Assembly (NCBI GenBank): GCA_029834535.1
Contig: JAQMWT010000091.1
Span: 26,001-90,000, forward strand
Reading direction: 5' to 3'
DNA length: 64,000 nt
From: Chrysophaeum taylorii
Taxonomy: Eukaryota > Sar > Pelagophyceae > Pelagomonadales > Pelagomonadaceae
Made by a program: the position numbers and the translations under genes. The notes beneath the pieces are model-generated. The model saw only the letters and a program-made list of their open reading frames with translations, was not told the DNA's origin and ran no database searches. Shown piece after piece: positions 25,831 through 58,134 of the stretch. Position 1 is the stretch's first letter, and each line of letters opens with the position of its first letter.

Positions 25831-26180
25831 CTTACCCTGATCGCCGACTGCGGTTGCGATGGAGGACGGTGCCTCATGAATCCTGAGCCTTGCGAGGGCA
25901 TCCGCCCTCCCGGCGTAGGTTGGCACCTAGTCGCCTCCCGGGCGGGCCGGTTGGCAGCCGGAACGTTCGCAGTGGGACGGGGTATGAAGACGGAAGGTTA
26001 TCGACGAGTTGGTTGTCAGTCACATCGCGGTCTCCTCGTCGCATGGCGACAAGCTTGATGGTCACTCTCCGCCGACCGACCTTTCGGCGCTCCTCGTCTA
26101 CAGGCCCGTGATTCCGGACTGGTTCCTGTCGGTCCGGCCTGGCTCCCATGCTCGGGAGAGGTCTGAAGTTAGTTAGTTAG
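25831..26180 (+). mobile_element. SINE-like retroposon, subfamily A, copy 3
   Basis: Plus-strand copy from CTTACCCTGATCGCCGAC to the TTAG tail, inserted in the short TGTC repeat of Helitron H4. Both flanks read TGTCTGTCTGTC, which fits a target duplication but is weak evidence inside a repeat. Confidence 0.85.
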
Positions 26181-32506: not shown

Positions 32507-34365
32507 GTGTCGATCACAACCCCGGGCACGTGGCAAAGGAGACTCTGTAAGACCCGTGTACCGAAAAAGCGCGCAGACGTCGTTCAGCGGCCGGCATTTA
32601 ATGAACGACGACGGAAAGGAAATTCAGGTGCCAAGCGGCAGAAAACCACTATCAGCGGAAGACACCGAGCGATGGAGCGATTCGATAGAAGCTGGATGCG
32701 GGACGCCTCGGAACGACTCCGACGCGCAATTACGCCGGCCAGCGACATACCCGTCCAGGGGAGACTCGAAGCTCCAACGGACGACGAGAGAAGCAGAGCC
32801 GCCGCCCCAGAGAACGCGCCAAGCGTGGCTAGTGCGCCCGAAACGAGCTCTGTTGCAAGAGAAATGACACCGGACATAGCGGATACCACAACAGTTCCGG
32901 TGTCTGCGACAGCAACTGGGGGCGAGCCGATGATGTCAACACCCGCACGAGAACCAGAGGAGGAAGCGGCTGCCACTGAACGGCCTCGGCCAGCACCCGA
33001 AATTTCCGCCACAACTCGGAAACCGGAAGAGCGCGCGCCTCCGATTCCTCCAGCAGTCAGCACCGCAGAAGAAGAAAAGAAGGAGTCTGAGTCAGAGATG
33101 ATTCGTCTTTTATTGGAACGAGTCGATCAATTACGTGAGCGTATGAATTTGCAACAAGGCCAATATCAATCGCAACTCGACTCCGCGCGAGAAGAAAACG
33201 GCCGACTTCGGCGGGCGCTCGAGGCCGCGTTGGGAAGCCAAGAATGACGAGCGCCCTCTCCGGACGTGACTCGTGTAACCCCGGAGAGAGGAGACGAAAC
33301 CGTTTCTTCGTTCTCGGACATGACGCCACCACGTGGGTATCCGGAACCCTCAGCGAGGCACCATTCCGTGCGCGGCCCAGAACGCCCTCATCTCACCGAA
33401 CTGCCGTTTGGTGAAAAGGTGCCAGGTATGTTGAACAAAGGGCATAGTCTCTACAAGCTGGCATTTCCACCGCTAGCAGGGCCTATTATCAAGTCGAAGG
33501 ACGAGACCTCGACGTGGTTTGCTCAATTGAGGAGAATGCTTAGTGGAATTTTCGATGCGCCCTCGGTAGCGATGAACCTGCTCGGAGTCGAGTATCTGCG
33601 TGGGCCCATGAATGTCTATTTGCATTGCGAAAAGAGTCGTGGCGAGATGTGAGGCAAATATCATCGGGGTATCATCACCAAAGACGATTTACTTCGGCAC
33701 GATCACAGTGTCTGGACGACATGGGTGAAGCTTTAGTGCTAACCTGCCTCCCGATACCCACTATGGAGCAATTACAGAAGGATGGGTACAAGATGCGGCA
33801 AGGGAGTTTGCCGCTGCAGAAATATATCCGCAAGTAGGTGCAATTGTTCGGTCTGTGGAGAGCTTCGACGGGCCAAAAGCTGGATCCATCTTTACTTCGA
33901 ATACACTTCTTCGATGGATTGCGAAAAGAGTCGTGGCGAGATGTGGGGCAAATATCATCGGGGTATCATCACCAAAGACGATTTACTTCGGCACGATCAC
34001 AGTGTCTGGACGACATGGGTGAAGCTTTAGTGCTAACCTGCCTCCCGATACCCACTATGGAGCAATTACAGAAGGATAGGTACAAGATGCGCCAAGGGAG
34101 TTTGCCGCTGCATAAATATATCCGTAAGTGGGTGCAATTGTTCGGTCTGTGGAGAGCTTCGACGGGCCAAAAGTTGGATCCATCTTTACTTCGAATACAC
34201 TTCTTCGATGGCCTGTCCGCCGAGGTACGTAACAGCATCGAGTACGCTCAGCTCCTTAACCCAGTGATGTCTCGCAGCCTGGGTGAGGTGATCGCCCTTA
34301 CCCAGTTCTTAGCGAATATTCATCCCCATCTGGCCGCGAAGGACAACGACGAGAAGAAAGGATAG
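32507..34365 (+). pseudogene. Gag of the methyltransferase-carrying element, copy a
   Basis: The N-terminal ORF 32,507-33,247 (246 aa) ends in a coiled coil (LLLERVDQLRERMNLQQ). A capsid part follows with WFAQLRRMLSG, YHRGIITKDDLL, RQGSLPLHKYIRKWVQ and LRIHFFDGLSAEVRNS, which is Ty3/gypsy Gag-like and matches copy b. There are several frameshifts, and a 294-bp tandem duplication doubles part of the capsid. Confidence 0.7.
33624..34211 (+). repeat. 294-bp in-phase tandem duplication within Gag
   Basis: Units 33,624-33,917 and 33,918-34,211 are nearly identical and exactly 98 codons long. Unit 1 has TGA and TAG where unit 2 has TGG, so the stops arose after the duplication or were corrected in one unit. 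Confidence 0.85.
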
Positions 34366-36600
34366 AAAGGAAAGGCATACAAATAGCAACTCGCGCGCCA
34401 GCGGTACAAGGAACCGCTACAGCAGCAGCAGCGCCAGGCCGGATACGCTACCGGAATCGAAGCGGAGCTGTCGACGCAGCCGTTAATAGATCCGGCGTTG
34501 CGCAGGGTGTACAAAACGTGTCTTGGCTGTGGGAAGAACCGTGACCACCAACACGAAAATGGTTTATGTCCTCCCAATGGCAACCCCAACAGGAAGCAGG
34601 GCGCCATTCGAACGCTGAAGGAACGCGGATTTCCCGCGACTGACAAAGGACAGGCGAAGTTCCGACAACCTCTTTCGGCAAGGCATGCGACGATGTACGC
34701 ACCCACGGGTCAACCGATTCAGGCACCTCTTGAACAGCAACCCCAGGTGGTCTACGCCGCAGCACAGGGAACAGGTTCAGGGTCGCCGCAGCAGGTTGCA
34801 GGTCCGCCGCAGCAGGATCTCCCGCAGCAGGTTGCAACCCAACAGGTCGTGCAGAATACTCTGAGGCCAGAGGACATTGTTCAAGCCGCTCGTACGATGT
34901 CGTTTATACGACAGGCTCATCAGACGACTAGTACGTTGAGAGAACAGCGCCCGCAAGATCGCGCTGTTCATGCCAGCTATTGCAATGATGGAGTTGCAGC
35001 TCAATGGCTCGATGCCATTCAGTGAGGATCAGGATGGAATCAAACGGTCTCAGTGTTGCACTGTGCTGAATTCGGAGCTCATCGAAGGAAACGTGTCTGA
35101 CGATAACGATGATACTGGAAGCGATGAAGACGCCTTTCCGTCAGAGAAGTATCATTTCCAAGATGAGCCGATGGATCCTCGAGAGTTTCTGGTGATTCCT
35201 GCGGAGACTTGGGAAGCGGAAGAATGCCAGGATCTTGCTGTGCACGAGGCCCCAAATCCATCTTTCCTTTGTGATACACCGGACGTCTCTGAGTTCGAGT
35301 ACCCTGTCGTGCTCGATGTACATGATCGTCTGCACGCTACCACCGTGACACCGCCAGGAGATGGTCCTGCCTAGGATACCGAGGCTTACCCGAGCATCTC
35401 ATCCGATTTTGAGGATTACTGTCCTCAAACCGCAATGAATACAGTTGGCACTGATTCGTCCCATCGTGAAAATAATGTGGTGACGTATGACGGAACGAGG
35501 CTAACATGCCTGACCTACATTCCAGTCGCTGTCTCTTCTCAGGATGGCTCGACTCATTGCATTACAGCTGCTGGATTAGATGGGATGAGTGACTCGCCTT
35601 ATATCAACCATCGACTTAGCGCGAAGTTGAGACAGGACGGCGAGATCGTGTACCGTCAGCCACTTCCGTGCACGGGCACTCTTGGTGGTTCGGGTGGTTC
35701 AGGAGCAGCTATAGAGGAAAGTGTGGTGCTCCCTTGTGTCTCTGACGCCAGGGAGATCCACGCTGCTGATGTTCTTCGTTGGACGGACAAATGGTCAGCT
35801 CCTTTTGGGAGCCCGGGATTTGCGTCTGTTGGGTGCTATCGTGGATTACACCGAGGAGACTGCCACTTTCCGTCGCTCTGAGGTCACCATAGGGGTCATC
35901 GAGAGTAGTGTGGCCGACGTTCCCCAGGATTACCAAGGAGTTGTCTTGTACAATGACGCCTTCGACGCAACTCCGACGACATTACCGATGTTTCCAACAG
36001 CTAGGCTTGCCGTGCAGGACGGAAATACGAGGCAATGGAAATTTTTGATCCCCCGTGGAGTTATGCAAGCCTCTTGCGGTCAATCCAATCCAGGGCCGAT
36101 CACGGTCGTACTCTTCTCAGACAGCCTCCGTTGGAAGGCAGCCGCCACGCTCCGCACGATTCGCCCGGATCTACGGCAGATCAACCGCCTTCTCGTCGAA
36201 ATTCTCGTGAAGATGGGAGCTTCGTCCCTCGCTTCGCCTATGTCACGAACACGCGGCACCTCTTGCCTAGTCATCCCTACATGCTAGAGCTCGAGTGCGA
36301 TGTTCCGCTGACGAAGGGACAAGCTTATCGCCCTCATCGGTCGCTGCATTCAGATCTTCGTGTGATACCAGGATCACATTCGCCCTACTCACCGGAGCCG
36401 AACGAAGTGCACGTGGCTGTAGAGCACATTGAAGAAGGCCCAATCGGCTTTGATCCCGACGCGCCCATGATCGAAGGAGAGGTCGTGCGGCACGAAGGAT
36501 GTGCGAATGTTCAGCTCGAAAGCTACTGAAGAAGACCCTGACGTTTGTTACGCCACCGTTTCAGTGGACGAAGACGAGACTGACATGAAGATGAGGTTTT
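34366..36600 (+). pseudogene. Zinc knuckle, protease-like region and linker, copy a
   Basis: A CX2C...HX4C finger (CLGCGKNRDHQHENGLC) lies near 34,510-34,565. Gln-rich sequence follows, then an acidic stretch. The protease-like domain has GLDGMSDSPYI near 35,572-35,605 and TNGQLLLGARDLRLLGAIV near 35,780, as in retropepsins. The linker contains YMLELECDVPL and EVHVAVEHIEEGPIG. Frame changes occur near 35,380, 35,730 and 36,520-36,600. Domain order and motifs match copies b and c. Confidence 0.65.
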
Positions 36601-36604
36601 GGCT

Positions 36605-37302
36605 GGATGACCTCCTCCTGAGCCTCGTCCAGATGAAGAGCAAAAAAACACCGCTGAAACGGAGGTTTTCGCTAAAGAGCTGCTAGCTAAGCTTGCTTCT
36701 TTGGCCTGGTTACCTTTCACCTACACCTTTGTCGTCGTTTATTTTGCCGGCGCTGGTGGCTCGACTTTGGGTATCCGACGATGCAATGTGCTATTCGGAG
36801 CCTCGTTTCGCATCGTCTTAGCTTTGGACTCTTGTCCACAAGCCCGTGCTGTCTGCCAGCTTAATTTTCCAGGAATTCCTTAAGTCTCGCTTGATTCAGG
36901 GGGATTCCATCGTCGCACGTATGACTCGGTGTTGACTTACTTGTCGGGAGACTACTGGAGGCATTCTTACTTTCATGTGAGCCCACCTTGCATTTATGGG
37001 TCAACCGGCATTCAGCACTATCGAGATGCGCGCAAGGGCGCCACCATTGCTTCGTGGGTCTTGCGTCGTTTTCGGAACGCACCTCACGTGATTGGACGAT
37101 GGATGTTGGAACAAGAACCGTCCGTGATACTGTTCGTAAATCGCGGTTTTTACGTTCCCCGCATTGTCGACTTCTACAGCATCACACCCGAGTTGCTATG
37201 TTCACGCACGCGTCTACTTGCGTGTAATGCCCGCATGTCGCTACCGCTACTTACGCGTGTACTAACAAACTTACAATACCGTTCTGGTCCGGCTTTGGGA
37301 TT
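36605..37302 (+). pseudogene. C5-cytosine DNA methyltransferase domain, copy a, 3' truncated
   Basis: Motif I is VVYFAGAGGSTLGIRRC (36,733-36,785), which binds S-adenosylmethionine, followed by ALDSCPQA and a CQLNFP segment. Motif IV has the catalytic-type SPPCIYGS (about 36,980-37,003). A Glu-containing block (WMLEQEPSVI) sits at motif VI, and the motif VIII arginines are in CSRTRLL. A TAA and a small frame break lie near 36,882. Sequence homologous to copia leader replaces motifs IX-X after about 37,302. Confidence 0.8.
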
Positions 37303-38475
37303 TGCGAGTTTATCTCTGAAGTTCCACAGGATTCCCAGTTGAGATTCGTCTCTCTGACGTTCCTGAGACGATAGTCAAGTCCAAACAACGTGCTATCGGT
37401 GTGTGAAAGGCAAGACGACGAGAAAACAAACCCCGACGAAAATGGGTTCTCGCAGTCAGCAAGACGCCATGATACAGGAGATAAAGGATCTCCAAGCAAA
37501 AGTAGCCGCTAGCGAAGCCGAGAGTAGAGCGGAGCTTCCGCTGCCTTCGCAGCTGCTTCCGAAGCCAATGCCAAAGTCGCTCGACTTGAAGCTCAATTTG
37601 CACAGTTTCTGGGACGTACTCCACCCCCCACTGTCGCTGCTGCGACTCCTCCTCCTATTCCGGCACCCCCAGATCCCTCCTTCAACACCAAACCCAAGCC
37701 CGCTACCTTCTCCGAACCCCCCAGCTCTGTCCTCAAGTCAATGGACGGCGCTCAAGTCACCCCTCCGATGCTCTCCTACCATGTATGGCAGCTGTCCACG
37801 TACCATCGCATGCCTGAAACTTGCATTTCCAAGTATTTCATTCGGAACCTCTTCACATGGGCATCCATCTTACGCGGCCCCACCGACTCTGCCGACGATC
37901 TTCTGAGCTATTGCGTCGCCGAATACGACAAGGATCCCCAACTACATGCCACTGCCGGCAATACCCCAGACTTTTCCGGTCTTAAGGTATACTACCAAGG
38001 CGCATACCGCACCTTCGGCACGGACTTCTGCGAAAACATATATTACCCCAAGTATCGCGAGCTCGAAGGGAAGGACAAAGACCTGCACCAACCATCACTT
38101 GGAAAACTTTACCACATCACGCTGCCGCACCTGGAAGGCAAAGAAGACGACGTCATCGTCTACCTCCGCGAGACAGTCCAACCCTTGTTCCGTCGTTTCC
38201 TCCACGCTGGCCCCAATTCCGTGAAGCACCCTGCCTACGACGAAATCGACAAGCTTGGGTCGACTCACCCCATCGGTCCAGAGTTTGTTCACCAAGTCCG
38301 CATAGCGCTCGACAAGCATACCGGGCAGAACCATGTCTACCACGCGCACTATGTGTATAACACATATTTGGAGACCCCGTTCGACCCAGAGTACCACGAA
38401 CGAGCCAGCTCACTACATCGACTACATGCGCCATGTTCAAGAGCAACTCCGGCAAATCCCCGATGATCCCTCGCT
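37303..38475 (+). pseudogene. Copia-type leader end and Gag
   Basis: 37,320-37,420 resembles 39,690-39,780 (TAGTCAAGTC, TGCTA..GGTG..GAAAG), the end of a copia LTR and its leader. Gag begins MGSRSQQDAMIQEIKDLQAK (37,442) with a coiled coil. A frameshift near 37,530 leads to a proline-rich stretch, and from 37,741 a helical capsid-like domain follows (SYHVWQLSTYHRMPE, ISKYFIRNLFTW). A second frameshift lies near 38,395. Similarity to known Gag families is not certain. Confidence 0.5.
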
Positions 38476-38481
38476 TCACCT

Positions 38482-38883
38482 TGGAGAGATTTGACCCTCT
38501 CCGGGTACATGGTAGAGGCCGCATGCGGTCTTAGGCGTGTACAGTCCATTCCGCATTTACTACACAAGGCAGGAATTGGCTCCTTACCCCCCAGGGACAT
38601 TAAGTCCCGTATAAGCTTTCCCACGGACAACGAGGGACAGAGCTCCGGCTAATTAAGCAAAAGACTCTGGACCTTACGGCACGCACCTGGAGGATTTCCC
38701 CTTGTTGGAAGAGAAACTCTATATGTTATCTCATATCTAGAAAAAACGGAAAGCGGAAGGGGAGAAGGGTAATCATGAGGGAAAGCCGTATTAACTAGGA
38801 GAGAAAAGCCTCGCGATGATGGAGTGTGAGAAAGGTGCAAGAAGTCCCAGAGCGCCGTACATATTGTGAGTCAACTCTCTGGA
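38482..38883 (-). repeat. Solo copia LTR
   Basis: 402 bp, TGGAGAGATTTGACCC at the left and TCAACTCTCTGGA at the right on the plus strand, homologous along its whole length to 8,846-9,246. Neither a primer site nor internal sequence is next to it. No clean 5-bp target duplication was found. Confidence 0.7.
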
Positions 38884-39832: not shown

Positions 39833-41820
39833 ATGCAGCCCCGACAACATGACGACTCACGACCCACAAGTCCCGAGTCTGGAATTAGCAATTCGCTACG
39901 CCACAAGAGCTCTGAGCTTTCTGGCAACCGCTCCAACAGCTCCTAGATGATTTGTCTAATCGGATCACCATTGATTGCGCTAATCTCAGAGACAAAAACG
40001 CTGCTGAAAATGCTGCGCTCGCCGCAAAAAATCGCTGCCGCCGCAAGAATCGAAGCTCAATACGAGCAACTCGACCAGGACGAGCAACTTGAACTGGCTT
40101 CCCCACCAGCTGTTCTTACGGCAACCCCCCTCACGCGAACTTCTCACGAAGTCGCGACCCAAGACCCGATCATCTCGATGGTCACCCCCCCTCCTGCTCT
40201 TCAATTTAAAACGTTCTCGAACATGAACAGACCCACCTCCTGCCATCCACCACACCGGATGTCAAACACCCCACGGCAAAGTCTCAGACCCCACTGCCTT
40301 CCCTCCGGACCCAGGCATAGCCAAGGTTACTCCACAACCTGGCACACCCCACATTCACGAGGACACTCCACCTTGTTCGAATATCGCACCATCGATGTTG
40401 AACACTCCACCACCACCACCACTAAACATTACTCCCTTCACTCCACCAACCCCACCGGAGCCTCCACCTCCTTCACTGGAACCTAACTCCCCACTATCGG
40501 CGACTCCCCCTTCACCATCTATTCAAGTTCACCAACATCCTCGTCAACCCCTTCGCCGCAACACTCATTTCTTTCCTGATGATCATGCCACCTACGGCCA
40601 TGACGGCCCCGGCACTGCCATCCCTGACCAAGCCCCCACCGCGGCTAAAGCTCCTGCCGCCCAACCATCGGACCCTCCTGACCGACCTTCATCATCTTTC
40701 GAAAGTCGCTGTCCTCCCGATTTTCATCTCCACCCGCGTGATTGCGCACTCCACGGCTACGACCATTTCCCCATCTCCACCCAAGCAACACTCCACCTTC
40801 TTTCTCAATGTTCCAATGCACCTCCGTCTGCGCTCCTACTCGAGTTGGCCACCACTCAGGCTGCATTCCGCTCCCAAACCGCGGACTTGGCCGCAACCAA
40901 GGCGACGCTCACTCTCGGAGACGACACATTGTCCTCCACTGCCGCCAAACTCACCATAACCGACGCCGCCCTAGCCTTCGCCACTGCCCAGCTCGCAATC
41001 CAAGCTGACGAATTGGTCTCCGCCCACGCGGAACTCCATGTCACCCACACCCAGCTCAAGGCACTCGAAACTGCCCACGCTGACATCCGCAACTCCCACT
41101 TTGAAACCAACGCCGTCCTCCAAACCATTCTTATCTCCTTGGATGCCACCCACCCCACCCAAGATGCTGCATCTCTTTCACCTCCTTTCCCAATTCTAAC
41201 TAACTTAACTAACTAACTTCAGACCTCTCCCGAGCATGGGAGCCAGGCCGGACCGACAGGAGCCAGTCCGGAATCACGGGCCTGTAGACGAGGAGCGCCG
41301 AAAGGTCGGTCAGCGGAGAGTGACCATCAAGCTTGTCGCCATGCGACGAGGAGACCGCGATGTGACTGACGACCAACTCGTCGATAACCTTCCGTCTTCG
41401 CCCCCCGGCCATACCCCGTCCCACTGCGAACGTTCCGGCTGCCAACCGGCCCGCCCGGGAGGCGAATAGGTGCCAACCTACGCCGGGAGGGCGGATGCCC
41501 TCGCAAGGCTCAGGATTCATGAGGCACCGTCCTCCATCGCAACCGCAGTCGGCGATCAGGGTAATTTCCCAATTCACCACCTACCTTCATCCCATTCCGA
41601 ACAAACCTCCAACGCCTCCCTCCAGATTCTCCCCGAGTATCATCCCCACCTCCACGGATGCCCCGGACCTGGTTCTCCTGGTTCACCACCCACTCCGTCT
41701 ATCTGTTCTCATCCCCCCGCCATCTCTGCCCCCTCCTCCTCTGCCAAATCACTCTTCGCCTCTCTGGCACCCCCTGAACCCCTTTGCACCCACTCGCTTT
41801 CTCCGCCATCTGGTTCATTC
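39833..41820 (+). pseudogene. Copia-type Gag with long coiled coil, split by a SINE
   Basis: Starts at 39,833 (MQPRQHDDSRPTS) with early frame breaks. The main open part 40,395-41,196 is Pro-rich, then a strongly heptad-repeated Ala/Thr/Leu coiled coil (around TTQAAFRSQTADLAATKA). After the SINE the frame resumes in IHHLPSSHSEQTSN up to about 41,820, where the minus-strand methyltransferase element begins. Confidence 0.5.
41197..41564 (-). mobile_element. SINE-like retroposon, subfamily A, copy 4
   Basis: Complete copy with hairpin and tail, flanked by an 11-bp perfect target duplication TTTCCCAATTC at 41,186-41,196 and 41,565-41,575. It interrupts the Gag coiled-coil ORF. Confidence 0.9.
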
Positions 41821-41829
41821 CAACTCGAC

Positions 41830-43158
41830 CAGGCGCGTCCGCCCACGGAACGTCGTACTTATTGAAATACGCAGGTCGCTCCTTCGCGGTGCCTTCTTCT
41901 TCCGCAGTTGCGGAGGGCTGGTTGTTGGTTTGGTTGCTCTGCATAACAGCAGTGGCGACGGTGCCCCCTGCAAAAGACTGGGCCGTCCCAGGCGATGTAA
42001 CCGAAGGTGGTGGCGGGGTGGCGGGGGCAGCACCTGATGGTGCAGGACTCGCAGGAGAGTAGAGTTCATCGGGCGAAATCCATGACACACTTCGAGTGGC
42101 AGGGTCGAGCGTTGGAAAGCGCGACTCGACAGCAAAGGGTGAAAACCGTAGAATATGGTGATCGGGTTGTGCTATCGTCGTCGTCGCAATATTCCGCAAC
42201 TTACCCAAATTTCGAAGTGAAGGATCAAACGAATTGTGCACTGCTAGCGCGATCTGCGTCATAGTCGCGGGTGGCACCATACTGCCAAGCATCTTCATAG
42301 CTCCTGTCTCTGAGACTTTCTCACCCCATTGCCACGTAGCAGGAACGGTCATAATTTCCTGGTGCATCTGCAACGTGAGTGGATGGGTGTTCGAGAAATG
42401 AGGTCCCAATAGGAGTTTATTGCGCGTCACCGTGAAGGCAGGGCCGATAGCCGGGCGCGTAGATGAGAAACTGTTCACTATAATGAGCGCGTGACAACCC
42501 GTCAATCCCAACGCTGGCCCAAAACGGTCCCGTAAATTCGGTGGTACACGCGATAATAACGGCAGTTCCAAGCGAACATTGCAAGCAAGTAGGCGCGTGC
42601 GCGACCACAGTAGTTCTGGTGTAATACTACAAAAATCGACAATGCGCGGCACATAAAATGCGTGATGCACAAAAGAGATCACTGATGGTTCCTGCTCGAG
42701 TGTCCATCGTCCAGTTACATAAGGTGCGTTGCGGAAATGGCGCAGGATCCAAGAAGTAATAGTAGCGCCCTTGCGTGCGTCCCTGTAGTGCAAATTGGCA
42801 GTCGAACCATAGATACACGGTGGACTTGCGTGAAAATAAGAATGCTTCCAAAAATCTGAATGTAAATACGACAACACCAAGTCGTATGTACGACGATGAG
42901 ATTCCCCCAAATCGTACAAAACATAGGGAATCTTAGGAAAATTGAGCGCAAACGTGGCTCAGGCTTGGGGACAAGCATCCAAAGCCAAGACAATGCGAAA
43001 CGAACTGCCATATAGTTCATTGCATCGCCGGATACCCAACGTTGATCCTCCAGCACCAGCAAAATAGACGACGACAAAGGTGTAGGTGATGGGTATCCAA
43101 ACCAAGGAGGCGTGCTTAGATAGCAGCTCCTTAGCAGTTGCTTCCATCCCCATTTCTG
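41830..43158 (-). CDS. C5-cytosine DNA methyltransferase domain of retroelement, copy b
   Basis: The minus strand reads from MGMEATAKELL (43,153). Motif I is VVYFAGAGGSTLGIRRC (about 43,035-43,085), then ALDACPQA. Motif IV is ASPPCIYGS (about 42,808-42,832). TLEQEPSVI sits at motif VI, SRTRLL at motif VIII, SSTRPAIGPAFTVT leads to LTLQMHQEIMTVPATWQW at motif IX, and MLGSMVPPATMTQIA lies at motif X (about 42,255-42,300). This is the usual order for 5-methylcytosine transferases, with a short target-recognition region. One TGA near 42,959 replaces the Arg found in copy a. A Pro/Ala-rich tail follows to about 41,830. Confidence 0.85.
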
Positions 43159-43293
43159 GTGCTTTTTTTTACTTCTTCATCTGGAGGTGGCTCAGAATGA
43201 GGTCTGTCACTCAAGACATCCTCATCGACTTCATTCTCGTCAACCGCAGCCATGAGAGTCGCATGACAAACGTCCTCAGTGGCTTCTAGATGC

Positions 43294-43658
43294 TAACTAA
43301 CTAACTAACTTCAGACCTCTCCCGAGCATGGGAGACAGGCCGGACCGACAGGAGCCAGTCCGGAATCACGGGCCTGTAGACGAGGGGCGCCGAAAGGTGG
43401 GTCGGCGGAGAGTGATCATCAAGCTTGTCGCCATGCGATGAGGAGACCGCGATGTGACTGAGAACCAACTCGTCGATAACCTTCCGTCTGCGCCCCCCGG
43501 CCATACCCCGTCCCACTGCGAACGTTCCGGCTGCCAACCAGCCCGCCCGAGAGGCGAATAGGTGCCAACCTACGCCGGGAGGGCGGATGCCCTCGCAAGG
43601 CTCAGGATTCATGAGGCACCGTCCTCCATCGCAACCATGCGGTTGGCGATCAGGGTAA
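43294..43658 (-). mobile_element. SINE-like retroposon, subfamily A, copy 5
   Basis: Complete copy flanked by a perfect 13-bp target duplication GGCTTCTAGATGC at 43,281-43,293 and 43,659-43,671. It is inserted in the linker between the protease-like region and the methyltransferase of copy b. Confidence 0.9.
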
Positions 43659-43671
43659 GGCTTCTAGATGC

Positions 43672-45951
43672 ATGTTGACACATCCTTCGTGCGGCATGAT
43701 CTCGCCTTCGACCACCGGCACTTCGGGGTCGATACCAATGGGTTCTTCACCAATGTGCTCCACGGCCACATGAACTTCGTTGGGCTCGTCTGAGCAATAA
43801 GATGAATAGGAGCCAGGTACGAGGCGGAGATCTGGGAGGAGTGACCGATAAGGTCGGAATGCTTGGCCCTTTTCCAGCGGCACATCGCACTCTATCTCCA
43901 AGAAATACGGTTGCTCGGAAGAAGAAATCGAGTATTTGTCACATACGCGAAATGAGGGATGATATCTTCCTCGTCTGCAGGCATTCAAGTTGGTCTTCCG
44001 CTTTTTTGGCAGCCTTATCACCGCGATGAGCATGATGGTGATTCGCTCTGGCACGAATAGAGCGCAGCAGACTGTCATAACTCCACGGTTTACCAACTGG
44101 CGTCCAAGTTTGGGTATTCCCGTCTTGTATAGCGAGCTTAGCTGTCGGGAACATCTGCACTACCGGCGGAGTCGTATCGCATGCATCATTGTAAAGGACA
44201 GCTCCGTGCTGGTCTTGTGGCGAGGCGGAGGTCCGATTATTGATAACTCCGATGGTCACTTCAGAACGCCGGAAAATAGCTCTCTCTGTTGCATAATCCA
44301 AAATCGTACCCAAGAGTCTCGATTCTCGTGCTCCCAATAGTAACTGCCTATTAGTTTGACCAACAAAGAACATGAGCAGTATGGATGTCGTTGGCACCAA
44401 GGAGATCCGGAGAATGACCCATTCTCGGATAGCAGTTCCCAAACCTCCTGAGCCATTCAGAGTACGAATCGTAGGGAGTGGCTGACGATAGATGATCTTG
44501 CCGTCACGATCAACGATACAAGCGGTGATCGATGTAGGGGGAATCCGCCATGCCATCCAAACCGGCAGCGATGATGGAATAATTCGAACCATATAGCGAA
44601 GAGACAGCCACATGCACATACGTCAAAGAGGCGGATCTCGCGCCATCGTACCTCACGGCTTTATTTTCACGATGGTCGGGATCCTGAGCGGTATTCAACG
44701 CAGTCTGAGGGCAGAAACTCTCGAAATCCGAAGAGATGGAAGGGTGAGCGGCGTAACGCTCGGCGCAGTCGTCCCTCGGTGGCACTATATCCATAGCAAC
44801 CAAGGTATCCCGCAACACACGAACGATCGTATATCCCAATCCGTCATGATTATCTTCGTCTCCCGAGGGAACTCTGGGTGCAACTCCGGTCACTTCGGTA
44901 CTTTGCCCCTGCTCCACCCACGCATCTTCAGTGACGACCAAAAAGGAAGGCGGTTCCATGGGCTCACCAGGGGAATAGCCTTCTGCAGAGAAGCTATCAT
45001 CATCGCCTCCAACATCGTCATTGTCACCGTCATACACGTTACCTTCCATGAGCTCAGAATACTGTACAGTGCAGTAGTCCGCTCGCTTAGCATCATCCTG
45101 ATCTTCGCCAAGCACTTCAAGCCACTGAGCGGCGACACCATCATTGCGCTGGCTAGGGTTTGCTCTCTGCGGCTGTTGCCCTCTCACCGTTGGAGCCGTC
45201 TGCTGTGCTTGACGAAGTAAGTTCATAGTATTGAGAGCCGTAGTCAGACCCTCCAGGCGCACCGAGGTCTGAGCGGTCCGCTGCACTGCGGGCTGCCTTC
45301 GGACCACCTGCTGTTGAGTGCCTGCAACCACCTGTTCTTGAATGCCTGCAACCAACTGCATCGGACCACCTGCTGTTGAGTGCCTGCAACCACCTGTTCT
45401 TGAATGCCTGCAACCAACTGCAGTTGACCTGCACCTGGAACCTGTGCTGCTGTGTAGACCACCTGCGGCTGTTGTACAACGCGCGGCGCTAGCTGCATCA
45501 CCGAAGCCTGCCCTGCTGCAGCTAAAAGCGCCCGTCGGTATTGCTCCTGTCCATCTGGCGTCGCTGGAAAACCCGCATTCGTCAACGTCTGATCAGCACG
45601 TCTCTTCCTCGAGGGATTGTCCGGCACACGACACACACCGTTGTCGTAGTAAAAACTACCATGCCGGCCGCAACTAAGGCACGTCGTAATTGCTTGGCGC
45701 GTATTGGCATCTATCCCCTGTGGTAGCCAGGTTCCAAATCCCGAGTCAGTAACATAACCAACCCGTTGTACTGGCTGCAACTGCTGCATCTGCTGCTGCT
45801 GCTGCTCTCTCCTCATCCGTGGTGCGCGCTCCTTTCCCTTCTCCTTCTTAATCGCCTCTTCGATGTTGGTAGTAGGGTTGGCTTCCAAAATCTTGGAGAT
45901 CTGGATGGTCAATTGAATGACATCATTGAGCGTCAGAGTGGATGCTCTCAT
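43672..45951 (-). pseudogene. Zinc knuckle, protease-like region and linker, copy b
   Basis: From 45,951: a helical start, a Gln-rich stretch, a finger CLSCGRHGSFYYDNGVC, a repeated VAGxQxQVV segment, an acidic region, a protease-like site GLDGMADSPYI (about 44,530-44,562), then FVGQTNRQLLLGARESRLLG and FRRSEVTIGVI, and the linker YFLEIECDVPLEKGQAFRP. Frame changes occur near 45,300 (a 62-bp duplication) and 44,520. It overlaps the upstream Gag end by 4 bases. Confidence 0.65.
45301..45424. repeat. 62-bp tandem duplication
   Basis: Two copies of a CCACCTGCTGTTGAGTGCC-type unit start at 45,301 and 45,363. The length is not a multiple of three, so it shifts the reading frame of the protein encoded on the minus strand. 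Confidence 0.85.
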
Positions 45952-47108
45952 ATGAGGTGAGGCCTCGGCAAGTTCGACACAAGTTCGACACTCGTCCGCA
46001 AACGCTCAGAATTGAGCCCAGCAACGAAGTGCGACCGAAACGCGGCAGGGTCAGTGTCGCGACCCGACATTGCTCGCCACTGGCCGAATTTCTGTACCCA
46101 ACGCGCGATATATTTGTTCAACGATAAATTCCCTTGCCGTAAATTGAACCATTCACGTTCAAGCTCCTCGACCGTAGCTCGAGGTGGGCAAGGAAGCTTC
46201 GTCGCCTCTTGCATAGCATCCGGACAGTCCTCATCATGCTGGCGCAACTCCTTTAATGTGATGATTCCTTCTTTGTACTTCTTCCACATCTGCGGCCGTT
46301 CGGCTTCCCATTTGCGATAAGCTTCCATAGGGGCGAGTTGATACTCGCCTCCGATCACGTTCATCGCTATCGAAGGTTTGTCACTTCTGCCTTCCATCAT
46401 ACGTCGCAATTGTATCCACCACGCGTCCATCTCATCCTGGTCCTTGGTAATTTGCCCATTGAGAGGCGAAAACGTGATACGAGTCATACCAGTAATTCCC
46501 TTATTGATATTATGTACCTCTTCTTGGTTACGAGGACGCGCTGAACCGGGGTTCGTATGATGCTGCGGGGTAGGCTCCGGTCGACGTCGCGGTGGCTGAT
46601 CATCGGCCAGTGCATATACAGCGTCATCCTCTTCGGGCGTAACACGCGTAGCATCCGGAGAGGCTGGCCGTGCCTCTCGAGCATGCGCCCGCGTGGATTC
46701 CTCCACCATTTGTCGAAGTCGATCGTTGTCGATCCGCGGCCGCTCCACTTCTGAGCGTTGTTGCTGCGCGTCGCGGCGGGCGAGCTCAATTTCACGTATG
46801 ACTTGCTCGATCTGCGACTGGTACATCTCGAACTGTTCGTTGATGGTCTGCAAAATCTCGGGGTCGGTATCCAATCGACGATCTGCCGCAGCTCTCGTAT
46901 TCGCGGATGGTGGCCTAGGAGGTGCACTCTCCTCTGGTCCACGCATCGCAGTAGAAAGTCCCGGGTCCGCTCGAGATGACTCCGTGGCATTCATCGCACG
47001 TTCGTAGGGTCGTGCGTACGGGAACGTCGGCTCACCCGGTCTTGAGGTTGCGTCTGGCGCAACCGTAGCTCCCCCTTCGCCGGCGCGTGGATCCGGAAGG
47101 ATGACCAC
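45948..47108 (-). CDS. Gag of the methyltransferase-carrying element, copy b
   Basis: 386 uninterrupted codons starting MVILPDPRAGEGGA. A coiled coil lies at residues ~80-140 (QSQIEQVIREIELARRDAQQ). The capsid runs ~195-380 with WWIQLRRMMEG, YKEGIITLKELRQHD, EREWFNLRQGNLSLNKYIARW and FRSHFVAGLNSERLR, the Ty3/gypsy Gag pattern. This is the best-preserved Gag of the family. The zinc knuckle follows in the next ORF with a 4-base overlap. Confidence 0.75.
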   Translation of the reverse strand: MVILPDPRAGEGGATVAPDATSRPGEPTFPYARPYERAMNATESSRADPGLSTAMRGPEESAPPRPPSANTRAAADRRLDTDPEILQTINEQFEMYQSQIEQVIREIELARRDAQQQRSEVERPRIDNDRLRQMVEESTRAHAREARPASPDATRVTPEEDDAVYALADDQPPRRRPEPTPQHHTNPGSARPRNQEEVHNINKGITGMTRITFSPLNGQITKDQDEMDAWWIQLRRMMEGRSDKPSIAMNVIGGEYQLAPMEAYRKWEAERPQMWKKYKEGIITLKELRQHDEDCPDAMQEATKLPCPPRATVEELEREWFNLRQGNLSLNKYIARWVQKFGQWRAMSGRDTDPAAFRSHFVAGLNSERLRTSVELVSNLPRPHLI

Positions 47109-48000
47109 GCTTGGGGGGCTGTCGAGGCTATCAGATGATCTTGCCTATCTTCGGATGCCGCTTTCCTCGGCTTCCGGCCGTTGAAACGGCATGCTGAACG
47201 GTGTTCTTCCAATGGACGTAAGTGGAGTCGCCATGCTGAATCGTTGCAGACGCTCCTGTGCGCCCCGAAACCACTGCGGTCGTTCTGTCATTGGCCTTTC
47301 TGCCATGACCGCGCTTTGCCCGGATAATAGGATTAATCCGAACGCTCACAACTCGCTTGTTGCACTCTTTTTCGTCAGACGGCAAATTGCCGGCAGCCGT
47401 CTGACTGCGCGCTGAACCGGTGCGCTGGACTTGCGGAGTTTTTGCCTTGCGCGTGAAGACTATGGACGGCCTTCCCGGTGCTGTCGCTCGCCGTCAGGGA
47501 GGTGGTCTGCCTCGCGCGAGCTAGGTTAGGTCTTACTTTTTTTTGCCTGGTTAGGTCTTACGATGCTTTGCCTGGTTGAGTCGTAGTGACTCCGCTCCCC
47601 GTTCGATCCGAATCACGTAAAATGAACCCTGCAGAAGTACCCGCGACCCGCTGGATCTTCACCCACAAATGCGTCGGCTTCGCACTCACTCGACCGTTAC
47701 GAACCGACTCGATCGATACTGCGGGAGTTGGACTATCGATGCCCGTTTCTGAGACCACTGTAGTGATTTTCTCAGACTCCCGCCCCTCTTGGCCGGACCA
47801 GAGGCCTCAACAACCCTTTCTCCCAACCCGAACCGCGGGTGAAACCACCACACGCCCGATCTCAGCGTAACACTCACGCCATCTCACAATCGGACAATCA
47901 AATGAGGGTAATAGCAAGAAGACAGCAAGAAAACAATACAAATGCCTGGTACATTGGGTTCAGTGGAAGCGCAGGTGAGGGTGTCAAGATGACACCCCCC
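47109..48000 (-). other. Leader and probable LTR of copy b
   Basis: Non-coding. The reverse strand of 47,560-47,880 matches the copy a leader at 32,125-32,260 in blocks (GGGCGTGTGGTGG, GCGGTTCGGG, CACTACAGTGGTCTC). 47,880-48,000 matches the presumed LTR part of copy a. Short poly-T at 47,540. Confidence 0.5.
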
Positions 48001-48032
48001 CCATAATTGCAAGGTCAGTACCAGGGCAACAA

Positions 48033-48482
48033 TCAGGGTAAGTCAGGTGGCAGGCAAGCAAGTGGGGGGATGGGCGTTACTGCCACAAGCTCAGCCAAGG
48101 CTGGTAAAGAATGATCCTGGTGCGCTTGTTGGTTGGACAGTCTATCATCTAAGAGCGCCAGATTCTTGGTGTTAGTAGTGGACTGCGTATTGAGTAGCTC
48201 GAATTTAGAGTTAAGCTGATCAAATGACGCATGCATTGCCGATAACTCATCTTGGATAATGACAAGCTTGTTAGATATTTCAATGAATTTTGCTTCAAGA
48301 ACTTCTATAGCATCAGAGGAACGGTCGGAGGATTCATCAACAGAAGAAGTGTTGGGTTTAGCGGGCGTAGACATTACTTTATCATCAGTCGGTTTCGAAT
48401 CAGAGAATGCATCAGCGATGGAGTGTGGGTAGCCAGCTTGGTCCAGAATGCTCGAAAAAGCAGTAGAGAACAGTAATGTCAA
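48033..48482 (-). pseudogene. Possible Gag N-terminus with coiled coil
   Basis: 149 codons. From the internal Met at about 48,375 it reads MSTPAKPNTSSVDESSD, then a heptad stretch (EAKFIEISNKLVIIQDEL) and a proline-rich end. It lies directly downstream (minus sense) of a copia-type LTR, the normal place for Gag. No continuation was found. Confidence 0.4.
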
Positions 48483-48900: not shown

Positions 48901-49460
48901 GGCGAAGACGGAAGTTTATCGACGAGTTGGTTGTCAGTCACATCGCGGTCTCCTCGTCGCATGGCGACAAGCTTGATGGTCACTCTTCGCCGACCGACCT
49001 TTCGGCGCTCCTCGTCTACTAACTAACTAACTTCAGACCTCTCCCGAGCATGGGAGCCAGGCCGGACCGACAGGAGCCAGTCCGGAATCACGGGCCTGTA
49101 GACGAGGAGCGCCGAAAGGTCGGTCGGCGGAGAGTGACCATCAAGCTTGTCGCCATGCGACGAGGAGACCGCGATGTGACTGAGAACCAACTCGTCGATA
49201 ACCTTCCGTCTTCGCCCCCCGGCCATACCCCGTCCCACTGCGAACGTTCCGGCTGCCAACCGGCCCGCCCGGGAGGCGAATAGGTGCCAACCTACGCCGG
49301 GAGGGCGGATGCCCTCGCAAGGCTCAGGATTCATGAGGCACCGTCCTCCATAGCAACCGCAGTCGGCGATCAGGGTAAGGGTCCGTGATTCCGGACTGGC
49401 TCCTGTCGGTCCGGCCTGGCTCCCATGCTCGGGAGAGGTCTGAAGTTAGTTAGTTAGTTA
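48901..49460 (+). mobile_element. SINE-like subfamily A, copy 6, 5' truncated, hosting another SINE
   Basis: A 5'-truncated plus-strand SINE (48,901-49,019 and 49,383-49,460) flanked by a perfect 13-bp target duplication GAAGAAGCTTGGA at 48,888-48,900 and 49,461-49,473. 5' truncation with an intact 3' end and a target duplication is characteristic of target-primed reverse transcription. A second SINE is inserted in it. Confidence 0.88.
49020..49382 (-). mobile_element. SINE-like subfamily A, copy 7, nested in copy 6
   Basis: Complete minus-strand copy inside the older SINE between GTCTAC and CCGTGATTCC. About four bases (AGGC) of the host SINE are missing and I see no target duplication, so this insertion may have been accompanied by a small deletion. 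Confidence 0.85.
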
Positions 49461-50330
49461 GAAGAAGCTTGGAAAAGTGATCGGCTACCTGGTAGTGAGT
49501 AGGACACCAGAGAGGACGAATGACCGAGTTGGCCTGGTAGTCACGAATGCGAAGTTCTCGTAAGTTGATATGACGAGAAGGAGCACTGACTTTAGGGTGA
49601 TTAGCGACATGTAAGGCGCGAGCGTTGTCAATAAGAGGGGAATTGCGCGAGCTTGATAACGTGAAAACAAATAAGGGTGAGAGGAGAAGATCTTGTGGAA
49701 CCACTGACATTCATCGGCGACTGCGCTGGAGTTCGGCTTCCATGGTGCTTTTGGCAGTAAGAGTTTGGCGTCCGCTAGACCAGAATACGAGACTGCCAAA
49801 GACGAAAATACATACACCAGGATGAGATCTTAATCGAGGGTCAGAACGGTCAGCGAAACTGGCATCAGTAAAACAAATAATGGCCGAACGAAGATGATGC
49901 AGTTCAGGATACGTGCTGATCAGATGCTGAATAAAGGGCGTAATAGAGGGGCTGTCGGATGAATAGTCGAGAGAATCATTCGGAGTACCCTTCAAAAATA
50001 AGAGGAGGGTAACAAAAAAAAAATATTTTTTTTTTTTTAAATAGCGAAGTAAAACATATAAGTGCAGAAGATGGGTCTGCTCAGGGTTGTGCATACCCTT
50101 GCAGCATTCGTTGCACAAAGTGGTGATATCTGGGCGACATGTGACAGACAAGTAAATACTAGTGCCACAGTAGTGAGGAAAAGTTTAGCGTAATATTCCT
50201 AAAGTGGGGGCCAAGTCGGAGAGAAGCTTAGCAGAAGTTTTTTGAGTGAGAATGCCCGAGTAGGGGACGTCCATAGTATGGAGGTTGAGTTGATGCTCGG
50301 CGAGCATCTTGTTTATCTTCGCGGCTACAT

Positions 50331-51805
50331 TCATAGTGAGGTGACCAGCGGAGACATTGTAGTGTACATCGATACCAAGGAAGGATCTGATGTTATCGTG
50401 CCACGTACCTTTGCCGTATTCCTTCTCCAGGAGGGGCGAAGAGATGTAATTTTGGCAGTGTTGGTACCAGTGATCAATAGGTCATCGACAGAGACGGATA
50501 GAAGAACCCATCTGTTGATAGATCGATCCCAACTGATATAGAGGCAAGTGTCGACTTGTGAGCGTTCGAACTCATGTTGTCGAAGAAACGAGTCGAGCTT
50601 AATGTTCCACAACAAAGCTGACTGTTTGAGACCATAGAGAGCCTTGACGAGTCGGAGAGCGAGCTTGGACTCTGGGTGGTTCTTCTGTATCTGCTGGATA
50701 AGGTTTTGCGAGACACGTATTCCTCGAGGTAAGTCAATCCATACCGGGCGATCGAGTGCCGATTGGATGAATGCCTGGGGAATGTCCGCGTGCGCGACCG
50801 GGAGCTTGTGCTTCACAGCGATGGCGAGCAATAACCGGTTGGTGGCGAGCATTGCGGTTGGTGAGGATGTGGCATAAAAGTCAATGCCTACACGTGCCAA
50901 GAAACCTCGGGTAACTAGACGAGCTATATAGCGGTCTGGGGTGCCGTCAGCAAAATACTTGATCTTCAGCACGAGTTTCGTCGAGATAGACGAACGGTCT
51001 GGCGGTAAAGGTTCAAGCTTAAAGACGCCGTTGGAGCACAAGCCTTCAATTTCCTTGCGAATCGAAGCTATATGCTGAAGCTTATCTTCTTCGCTGAGTC
51101 CTTTGAGTTCGACAATCTTCTCAGGCTCATAGACAATATCATCAGCAGTCACGAGTTGTAACACGACATGGTCGATGTGCTGCAAGTCATAGTCCATGAC
51201 TTCTTGGAGAATGTCTTGGTTCGGATCACTTTGACTTAGAAAGAGGTGTCCGAGTTCGCCAGAATCATGCATGAAGGCATGTCTGTGACGAGAAGCTAAG
51301 TGGTAGTGCTGATGCGCTGAGATGTCCCATAAAAGAGATGAGCTCATACAACAGAATTCTTGGTTCCATTGACGCGCATAGTACTCTGCCGGTGACAGTT
51401 CGTCGTGGCACACATAGTTCTCGAGAACAGAACTGTCGTTGTCCAGGTGGTCGACCAATACAGATGAGTGGTACGGCTTCCTTGGGAAGTCAACGTACAA
51501 GAGTTCTGCGTCGGTTTCTCTCTGCATATCCAGTGCAGCAGAGACAAAATGAAACCTCCCCATGCGACTATAACCGCACTCTCGTTTGGGACACAAGCCT
51601 TTACTTCATGTCATTTGTTTACGCCGATAGTACCGCGACACACGGCAACCAAGATAGAAGTGGACTGCGTTCCACCCTCATCTCTGAGCGCCACCCCCGA
51701 CATGCTGCTCCCGGCACTACTGCCCAGTCCCACCACGTCTGATTCAGCCCCATCGCTTTGTATGACGTCATATGTCATATTCCGATTAAAGCCCAGACAC
51801 CGCAC
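50331..51805 (-). pseudogene. Copia linker and reverse transcriptase
   Basis: 421 open codons (51,596-50,331). A region before RT is followed by RYIARLVTRGFLARVG, SSPTAMLATNRLLLAI, HADIPQAFIQSA, KALYGLKQSALLWN and the catalytic LLSVSVDDLLITG. The frame is lost near 50,400 before RNase H. Upstream, 51,805-51,611 is a Ser/Gly-rich linker ending at a stop. Integrase is missing because the element breaks near 51,800. Confidence 0.8.
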
Positions 51806-57768: not shown

Positions 57769-58134
57769 TAACTAACTAACTAACTTCAGACCTCTCCCGA
57801 GCATGGGAGCCAGGCCGGACCGACAGGAGCCAGTCCGGAATCACGGGCCTGTAGACGAGGAGCGCCGAAAGGTCGGTCGGCGGAGAGTGACCATCAAGCT
57901 TGTCGCCGTGCGACGAGGAGACCGCGATGTGACTGACAACCAACTCGTCGATAACCTTCCGTCTGCGCCCCCCCGCCATACCCCGTCCCACTGCGAACGT
58001 TCCGGCTGCCAACCGGCCCGCCCGGGAGGCGAATAGGTGCCAACCTACGCCGGGAGGGCGGATGCCCTCGCAAGGCTCAGGATTCATGAGGCACCGTCCT
58101 CCATCACAACTGTAGTCGGCGATGAGGGTAAGGG
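57769..58134 (-). mobile_element. SINE-like retroposon, subfamily A, copy 8
   Basis: Complete copy with a 7-bp target duplication TTGCAAC at 57,762-57,768 and 58,135-58,141. Removing it rejoins the Gag-Pol frame (HRLQ to QEQHTTN). Confidence 0.88.

Follow-up and report, generated by a model that had tools for sequence, protein, structure and literature searches.

The feature studied here, at 41,831–48,087 of the window (the whole 64,000-nucleotide stretch of Chrysophaeum taylorii DNA analysed), is almost certainly a degenerate, 3′-truncated copy of an LTR retrotransposon whose polyprotein carries a C5-cytosine methyltransferase (MTase) between a protease-like (PR-like) region and the reverse transcriptase (RT); its Ty3/gypsy assignment rests on domain order. 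The first-pass annotation had read Gag, PR-like region and MTase in this order on one strand between 41,830 and 47,108, which proved right, the strand being the minus strand, and the element runs on to a 5′ LTR at 48,087. Scans of the window for tRNAs and Rfam families gave no matches. The copy is laid out as follows:

41,831-48,087, minus strand: full extent of the truncated copy: 5′ LTR of 329 bp, primer-binding site, Gag, PR-like region, MTase
47,759-48,087, minus strand: 5′ LTR, 329 bp, TGTGGCAG...CACTACA, with TG...CA ends; 89% identical to an LTR of the relative C345
47,742-47,757, minus strand: primer-binding site TGGTCTCAGAAACGGG, one base past the LTR
45,948-47,144, minus strand: Gag ORF, 398 aa, open; Retrotrans_gag E 0.007, 17 bits, below the cut-off of 24.1
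45,631-45,681, minus strand: zinc-knuckle-like motif, read by eye
44,077-44,791, minus strand: PR-like region, frame-shifted, with DGM instead of D[S/T]G; homologous to other copies
43,321-43,650, no strand assigned: 330-bp dispersed repeat inserted between PR-like region and MTase; copies at most 96% identical elsewhere in the window
42,206-43,114, minus strand: C5-cytosine MTase domain, 92.7% identical to the stop-free domain of C345 (L034)
41,831-42,205, minus strand: MTase-RT linker; element cut at 41,831, ~390 bp short of the expected RT start

Across LTR, Gag, PR-like region and MTase, the copy shares 88–93% DNA identity with C345, and the alignment between the two breaks at the 330-bp repeat. 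Motifs I (FAGAGG), IV (SPPC), VI (EQE, with its Glu), VIII (SRTR) and X (LGSMVPP), numbered by the usual motif names, were found in the MTase in the order first described, together with one in-frame TGA at 42,959–42,961. Pfam searches, proposed as a check, gave a divided answer: stop-free relatives score above the PF00145 cut-off of 22 bits (L034 36.2, L033 of C225 38.5, the C5 and C235 domains 26.0 and 27.2), whereas the open MTase piece in the window reaches 12.4 bits, and lineage C95 has no Pfam match at E 0.1. Retrotrans_gag scores stay below cut-off in the window and in the other copies examined (14.6–17 bits), with no match to this profile in C5 and a stop within Gag in C345. The zinc knuckle reported earlier is a knuckle-like motif; its spacing is non-canonical in relatives (CX2CX7HX4C) and the His is gone from the window copy. 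Retropepsins normally carry D[S/T]G; the supposed retropepsin is a conserved region that reads GxDGMAD...LLxGxR in the copies and has no Pfam match among the relatives scanned. It is named ‘protease’ from its place in the element.

The annotation had further described an element in which Gag and protease can be seen and RT cannot, and the scanned window ORFs at three copies do show none. This claim did not survive comparison with relatives, in which RT, RNase H and integrase lie downstream. The match of C345 to the window copy stops at L034:6377 and RVT_1 starts at about L034:6771; RT is therefore missing from the window because the copy is truncated before it. Profile searches placed RVT_1 downstream of the MTase in L034 and L033 and an integrase in L032, while L044 contains RVT_1, RNase H and an integrase zinc-binding domain, all above cut-off. 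In L060, from C5, MTase, RVT_1, RNase H and integrase occupy one 2,838-aa stretch within a 3,063-aa frame. The order RT, RNase H, integrase is above cut-off in L060 and L044 and partial in L034, L033 and L032. With RT and integrase in the relatives, and the window copy ending ~390 bp before RT, an MTase element devoid of RT has next to no probability and was rejected.

The relatives C345 and L027–L031 are bounded by direct LTRs of ~330 bp with TG...CA ends, and have a primer site starting TGG and a polypurine tract AGGGGG. The primer-binding site following the 5′ LTR is identical in L027, L030 and L031 and differs by one base in L028 and in L029. The two LTRs of L029, an internally deleted copy, are 98.2% identical, and those of C345 91% over 291 bp; in a check for target-site duplications, the L029 flanks had GGGG in common and the C345 flanks were not clean.

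The window holds further elements:

33,404-37,303, plus strand: second copy, more diverged; MTase 77% identical, with stops
33,404-34,320, plus strand: second copy, Gag
35,345-36,038, plus strand: second copy, PR-like region
36,068-36,691, plus strand: second copy, post-PR region
36,695-37,303, plus strand: second copy, MTase, first two thirds only
22,766-23,599, minus strand: third fragment, PR-like and post-PR regions only
38,011-38,488, plus strand: MTase-bearing Ty1/copia family, Gag fragment, 68–76% identical
49,461-51,536, minus strand: MTase-bearing Ty1/copia family, 3′ part (RT), 87.5% nucleotide identity to L010:7644-9684; RT 94.6% identical over 224 aa and 88% over 60 aa
58,677-59,605, plus strand: RT and integrase fragments similar to the MTase-gypsy lineages; RT closest to C95 (85% over 105 aa), integrase pieces 34–56%

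A recurrence of the same domain order had been reported at 32,507–37,302; a copy does lie there, at about 33,404–37,303, but its MTase breaks off at residue 204 out of 303. The partial copy at 22,766–23,599 is there too. Genome-wide, at least 107 matches to the window MTase ORF (a count that takes in this ORF and some split copies) and at least 110 to the Gag ORF rule out chance adjacency, as had been argued. It had also been suggested that copies of the Gag-protease part lacking the MTase would expose a single segmental duplication. This comparison was partly run: an MTase-less derivative does exist, at four places, and a single duplication is out, since the copies lie on many contigs, are 66–93% identical and have differing breakpoints.

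Among the matches listed, at least 238 non-overlapping places in the genome carry the gypsy MTase (100 of the 112 rows of one MTase listing, second pieces of split copies omitted, and 138 of the 139 of another), a number that contains some doubles because three contig pairs look duplicated; ten added places served only as RT partners and lie outside it. The pairs in question, C25/C521, C6/C268 and C10/C297, have near-identical matches and seem to be duplicates or haplotypes of one another. MTase adjoins RT in at least four lineages, for which MTase and RT identities give the same ranking, and the MTase lineages are mutually 38–85% identical. To judge from its sequences, the element MTase is old.

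The MTase is under strong purifying selection, about as strong as that on RT. In one pair between subfamilies, dN/dS was 0.053 for the MTase, 0.041 for RT and 0.131 for the PR-like region, with the linker also above the MTase; the MTase median was 0.061 over 32 pairs, and 18 pairs from two other subfamilies gave 0.053. The single-pair and 32-pair comparisons omitted L036, L039, L040 and L041, which have stops or broken frames, and L018/L023, which duplicate L032/L034. With dN/dS of ~0.05 in the selection check, the picture of a multicopy retroelement with a C5-MTase after the protease region, under purifying selection, stands. In addition, the Pro-Cys, Glu, R-x-R, PP and motif I F-x-G-x-GG positions are invariant in alignment A4, comprising 15 domains picked from those retrieved (38–95% identical to the first), L042, L050, L058 and the degenerate L036 and L039–L041 being among those excluded. 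Both results argue against the MTase being a passenger, an old and catalytically idle fusion retained since the polyprotein folds around it, which we regard as quite improbable. Such a passenger would fit with the lack of a Pfam match in C95, with the MTase-deleted derivative, and with motif changes in L042 (VPH in motif X), L049 (APC in motif IV), and L050 and L058 (the motif I glycine).

The MTase-deleted form is a derived deletion within the MTase-bearing family. It sits at four places with a single common junction, the intact boundary being present at 18. The deletion is clean, so an element can do without an MTase strictly in cis. Of 69 gypsy-class RT matches, chosen by eye among the listed rows of lower score (higher-scoring matches and a few others excluded), 39 have a listed MTase within 2.5 kb; among the remaining 30, six loci were examined, of which four had an unlisted MTase and two the same deletion, and a separate MTase-less family was accordingly rejected. 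Many MTase copies are stop-free. Stops occur in 11 of 19 places with short Gag-MTase spacing (an analysis of 108 of 112 MTase rows, the last four omitted, and, with a C167 piece missed, 109 of 110 Gag rows) and in 23 of the 138 places of the second MTase listing, a by-eye count that includes partial matches.

Regarding activity, we infer that this compact domain of ~300 aa inside a retrotransposon polyprotein probably functions as a DNA cytosine methylase. It matched no DNMT class, and had no significant relative, in the profile searches made; no relatives appeared in IMG/VR, nor among ~5.8 billion proteins, of uncertain eukaryotic gene-model content, in a search by shared 5-residue words. One query of the protein search was L034 residues 1000–1320, with targets restricted to 0.55–1.75 times 1,812 aa; for alignments A1 and A2 as queries, the 8,000 best candidates were scored each. 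DNMT2 enzymes methylate tRNA, and the element domain could likewise methylate RNA (the element's genomic RNA or the primer tRNA), or serve the particle as a structural component that binds nucleic acid, which we think unlikely. In the PDB, the A4 profile weakly matches a bacterial C5-MTase at E 0.17, two DNMT2-type enzymes at E 0.38 and 0.42, one of them named as a tRNA methyltransferase, and at E 0.43 a glycosyltransferase that is unrelated; none of these matches reaches significance. That the domain belongs to PF00145, the family of C5 DNA methylases, speaks for DNA; membership does not, however, decide between the two substrates, because DNMT2 falls in the same family (the host DNMT2-like gene scores 69.6 bits). 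SymbioLINE-Dnmt and KnitGypsy-Dnmt3 were inactive on yeast DNA, a result that its authors call inconclusive in a passage of PMC5890265 and that would agree with an RNA substrate.

A weak CpG footprint would agree with it as well. Observed/expected CpG is 1.02–1.06 in the elements and 1.26 and 1.36 in two host-gene loci, so the elements have the lower values without being depleted. In six comparisons, transitions were only 1.08–1.42 times as frequent at CpG as at CpH; a strong CpG-decay footprint was looked for in the elements and not found. On these values, there is no strong CG methylation footprint.

A Ty1/copia family of the same genome bears its own C5-MTase, between PR-like region and integrase. 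A six-frame Pfam search of the genome listed 57 PF00145 matches, two of them clear host genes and the other 55 partial and all alike in kind; the 12 of these that were examined are copia elements. Profile comparison gave no match between gypsy and copia MTases, the alignments being thin, so that separate origin is not thereby proven. The host genes are the DNMT2-like gene and a DNMT5, both with the PF00145 catalytic domain also found in the element MTase; DNMT5 has an SNF2 domain fused to it, unlike the elements, in which profile scans found no SNF2 domain. Cryptococcus DNMT5 is described as a maintenance enzyme in a passage of PMC13297926.

For these gypsy-type elements, we consider it moderately probable as a whole that the polyprotein MTase travels in the particle alongside RT and acts on newly made element DNA; methylation of the element's cDNA or of its own copies may by itself be put at even chances. 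As a polyprotein part, the MTase would enter virus-like particles with RT and could methylate the element cDNA while it is being reverse-transcribed or afterwards, or else the DNA where it integrates; a new copy would then arrive already marked. A maintenance-type host DNMT5 would then copy the element-set mark onward, and the outcome may be a tolerated, self-limited parasite, or shelter should the host act against DNA that is unmethylated. Counting against this explanation are the weak CpG footprint, the MTase-deleted derivative, the stops at short spacing, the unmatched C95, the motif changes, the Gag stop in C345 and the lack of fit to any DNMT class in the searches made. The MTase might alternatively act in trans on host or competitor DNA (rival elements, integration sites, viral DNA), a role proposed as antiviral for such domains by Morozov 2019 in a passage of PMC6338049. 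Its presence in two LTR superfamilies, with MTases lacking detectable mutual similarity, is as expected from a general benefit; the measured selection, however, most simply reflects a benefit to the element's own replication, whereas one in trans would be shared with competitors, and action in trans therefore seems to us rather improbable.

For self-methylation, the MTase-deleted sister copies offer a natural control, and with a maintenance-type host DNMT5 the system bears on the source of new methylation. If element MTases write methylation and DNMT5 copies it on, parasites would supply a step missing from the host, one at which two element families would have arrived by convergence; that retrotransposons form the de novo DNA-methylation arm of C. 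taylorii is a tentative suggestion that we would not expect to hold. It is puzzling that a parasite should encode the type of enzyme that usually silences it; worked-out cases come from dinoflagellates and a charophyte (PMC5890265). Here, a small ochrophyte genome of 71 Mb has many stop-free MTase copies, several lineages and two captured MTases without detectable similarity.

Retrotransposons with captured MTases were already known, as the first-pass annotation stated (de Mendoza 2018, passages of PMC5890265), and the present elements are a variant of this kind. In the same passages, hundreds of retrotransposon MTase copies are given for SymbioDIRS-Dnmt3 and SymbioLINE-Dnmt of Symbiodinium; the DIRS MTase shares an ORF with RT and, in isolation, methylated CG de novo in yeast. 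Those are DIRS (tyrosine recombinase) and LINE elements, whereas ours are gypsy and copia with rve-type integrase. DNMT3 members are mentioned in LTR Copia and DIRS elements of streptophytes and dinoflagellates in a passage of PMC12344493; here, the copia type has a pelagophyte host, and its MTase follows the PR-like region and precedes integrase. According to a passage of PMC6338049, Ty3/Gypsy and DIRS elements encoding DAM and DCM occur in Stramenopiles among others, but it separates neither adenine from cytosine methylases nor one element class from the other, and names no stramenopile element or species. A close likeness is to KnitGypsy-Dnmt3 of Klebsormidium nitens (PMC5890265, in the passages cited), an intronless gypsy-type element with the MTase in its Pol ORF, several copies and Ka/Ks < 0.2. 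Both are gypsy-type, multicopy and under purifying selection, with the MTase within the Pol region; KnitGypsy-Dnmt3 has a charophyte host, a DNMT3-class MTase and repeats described as DIRS-like, whereas the present elements have an ochrophyte host, an MTase placed in no DNMT class, ordinary direct LTRs of ~330 bp in C345 and L027–L031 rather than a DIRS-like arrangement, at least four lineages and at least 238 places.

The window, positions 26001-90000 of contig C91, belongs to an assembly of 70.8 Mb in 697 contigs, and its methyltransferase-bearing Ty3/gypsy-type copy (41,831-48,087, minus strand) aligns at 88-93% nucleotide identity with an element on contig C345 of the same genome. The parts of this copy, the related fragments and the dispersed repeat that interrupts it are as follows.

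48,087-47,759, minus: LTR of 329 bp, start of the gypsy element
after the LTR, minus: TGG primer-binding site
downstream of the primer-binding site, minus: Gag ORF, then a protease-like region (so called by position)
about 43,321-43,650: 330-bp dispersed repeat, inserted between the protease-like region and the methyltransferase
42,206-43,114, minus: C5-cytosine methyltransferase (MTase) domain with one in-frame stop
33,404-37,303: more diverged gypsy fragment
22,766-23,599: more diverged gypsy fragment
330-bp repeat copies: 9297-9624; 21921-22196; 25840-26156 (minus); 41229-41556; 43321-43650; 49043-49370; 57796-58123

The copy breaks off at 41,831, about 390 bp short of the expected RT start. 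The first-pass annotation had described an element with Gag and protease but no RT; this absence is explained by truncation, because fuller relatives possess RT, RNase H and integrase. Compared with the repeat copy at 43,321, which is adjoined by (TTAG)n, five others in the window are 92-96% identical and one 79%, alongside shorter pieces; tRNA and Rfam scans of the whole window gave no match.

Among the fuller elements, the one on C345 (loci L034 and L035) is flanked by two LTRs, of which the 5' one is shortened and which agree at 91% of positions over 291 bp; it has an MTase sharing one frame with RVT_1, an integrase-like frame (read by eye) upstream of the 3' LTR, and a Gag interrupted by a stop. 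MTase and RVT_1 exceeded their cut-offs on C225, with RNase H slightly below; the C421 integrase (L032) reached 32.7 bits for rve against a cut-off of 32.6; and RVT_1, RNase H and the integrase zinc-binding domain were all above cut-off at L044 (C95) and L060 (C5). A 2,838-aa stretch within a reported 3,063-aa frame on C5 shows the order protease-like region, MTase, RT, RNase H, integrase, and its long N-terminal region gave no Pfam Gag match. The protease-like region found no Pfam match in the relatives, but two of its motifs, G-x-D-G-M-A-D and LL-x-G-x-R, are conserved across four lineages.

The methyltransferase assignment, made earlier from motifs, was borne out by PF00145 (cut-off 22 bits), with scores for the METHYLTRANSFERASE of 36.2 bits (C345), 38.5 bits (C225), 26.0 bits (C5) and 27.2 bits (C235); a Pfam search with the C95 lineage MTase was without match. 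Fifteen aligned MTase domains, 38-95% identical to the first, have the same residues at five motifs without exception: F-x-G-x-GG in motif I, Pro-Cys in IV, Glu in VI, R-x-R in VIII and PP in X. One aligned domain (L049) has APC in place of PPC, L042 has VPH in place of VPP, the motif I glycine is altered in L050 and L058, and motifs are broken in L036 and L039-L041.

Tested for purifying selection, as the first-pass annotation had suggested, the MTase proved constrained, with dN/dS of about 0.05-0.06 between subfamilies, close to RT. The single pair C345 versus C225 gave 0.053 for the MTase, 0.041 for RT, 0.131 for the protease-like region and 0.424 for the MTase-RT linker, with Gag dS saturated. 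The MTase median over 32 pairs was 0.061, and 18 pairs between two further subfamilies gave 0.053; between-subfamily dS is near saturation (1.6-2.2), so these exact values are soft, and the contrast between domains is the robust part of this sequence-based result. Medians within clusters were higher, at 0.08-0.24 and, in one cluster with tiny counts, 0.32, which is what a relaxation of selection after insertion should give. Lineages rank alike by MTase and by RT identity (85/88% for C345-C225, 47/82% for C5-C95, 43/60% for C345-C5 and 38/61% for C345-C95); a single MTase acquisition predating the lineage split would fit.

Two protein searches located the gypsy MTase at at least 100 and at least 138 places, none overlapping, although these counts are inflated by duplicate contigs. 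Contigs C25/C521, C6/C268 and C10/C297 show near-identical matches at nearly the same offsets and appear to be haplotype or duplicate contigs. Among the matches listed in the first search, 29 of 49 near-full-length MTase pieces lack a stop, 17 have one and 3 have two or more. An MTase lies within 6.5 kb for 76 of 109 Gag pieces, with none among the matches listed for the other 33; the spacing is 3.0-4.5 kb in 47 of the 76 pairs and below 1.6 kb in 19, where 11 of the MTases contain stops. L017 (C692) and L020 (C373) have lost about 2.6 kb (Gag C-terminus, knuckle and protease-like region) and kept the MTase, the deletion being bounded by imperfect 11-bp repeats at the junction read in these two; L017 is one of the 19 short-spacing places, L020 lies outside them, and the 18 further places, alike in spacing, are candidates for the same deletion.

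Other gypsy copies have lost the MTase itself, at an exactly shared junction:

C209:18566
C248:16363
C335:27348
C394:33372

The intact boundary occurs at 18 places versus these four, and C84 holds a fifth match to the junction with two mismatches. Two of the four were read (L061 and L066); the reading frame of L066 continues over the junction, and its protease-like region is missing too. The recurrence of this derivative at four places means that the MTase is dispensable where other copies can help, like any trans-acting product; L029, with Gag between LTRs and neither MTase nor RT, indicates that copies relying on such help do arise. The four places provide a natural control set.

Parts of an LTR-element polyprotein are packaged together with RT, and the position of the MTase implies that it would be packaged likewise. 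It may then methylate nascent element DNA, a mark that DNMT5 could maintain. CpG observed/expected ratios are 1.02-1.06 in elements, compared with 1.26 at one host-gene locus and 1.36 at another, with CpG/CpH transition ratios of 1.08-1.42 in six comparisons. By these measures the footprint is weak, which would argue against heavy, long-lasting CG methylation of element copies, unless the copies are young or deamination is repaired.

The host DNMT5 (L009/L002/L067, C621) has its SNF2 domain and MTase in the same open frame. A DNMT2-like gene (L001, C634), which we so name from its CFT motif, adjoins an ORF presumed to be fucoxanthin-chlorophyll-protein-like. No DNMT1, 3 or 4 was recognised in a six-frame search with 12 of 55 partial matches opened, which an intron-split gene could escape. 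A red-type rbcL, whose best PDB matches we take to be diatom enzymes, lies on a 103,599-bp contig, and C696 (58,038 bp) is probably the mitochondrial genome, with eight RT matches, perhaps group II intron maturases. The genome report for Chrysophaeum taylorii, in excerpt, gives 71 Mbp, 702 contigs, a 58-kb mitochondrion and a 104-kb chloroplast (PMC10366177), and its data include long reads.

Searching the genome with PF00145 returned 57 matches, namely the DNMT2-like gene, DNMT5 and the 55 partial matches, all of which stop at model positions 148-175. All 12 that were opened belong to one MTase family:

L010-L015 and L003-L008, on C96, C314, C582, C4, C328, C523, C120, C64, C326, C683 and C564: copia MTase loci

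The 1,952-aa frame at L010 contains RVT_2 (133 bits), PF00145 (32.1 bits) and rve (17.2 bits, below cut-off), and is therefore of Ty1/copia type. The MTase of this family, whose open frames reach 1,952 aa, sits between the protease-like region and integrase; its sequence shows TLPCQ, ENV and, towards the end, G-T-PY. Measured against L010, the stretch from motif I to motif VIII gives dN/dS of 0.10-0.26, and the remainder 0.07-0.40. Profile comparison detected no match between the copia and gypsy MTases, suggesting that they may have been captured separately. The window also contains copia-family fragments.

Retrotransposons with captured methyltransferases were, as the first-pass annotation noted, already known: De Mendoza 2018 describes DIRS, LINE and gypsy elements that carry a DNMT, and shows that SymbioDIRS-Dnmt3 domains methylate CG de novo in yeast (PMC5890265). 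Excerpts of later papers mention Copia as DNMT-bearing (2025; PMC12344493) and a predicted N4C/N6A methylase aboard the Ectocarpus Sola1 DNA transposon (PMC12477816). A 2019 paper, in excerpt, places retrotransposons of Ty3/Gypsy or DIRS type that encode DAM or DCM in several groups, Stramenopiles included, treating them together and giving no example (PMC6338049), so that methylase-bearing retrotransposons there are not wholly unannounced. Pelagophyte retrotransposons carrying a C5-MTase were not found described in the accessible portions of the open-licence literature. As far as the literature searched shows, what is new here is the host lineage, the presence of two LTR superfamilies in one genome, the depth of the MTase clade, the unplaced MTase class and the MTase-deleted sisters.
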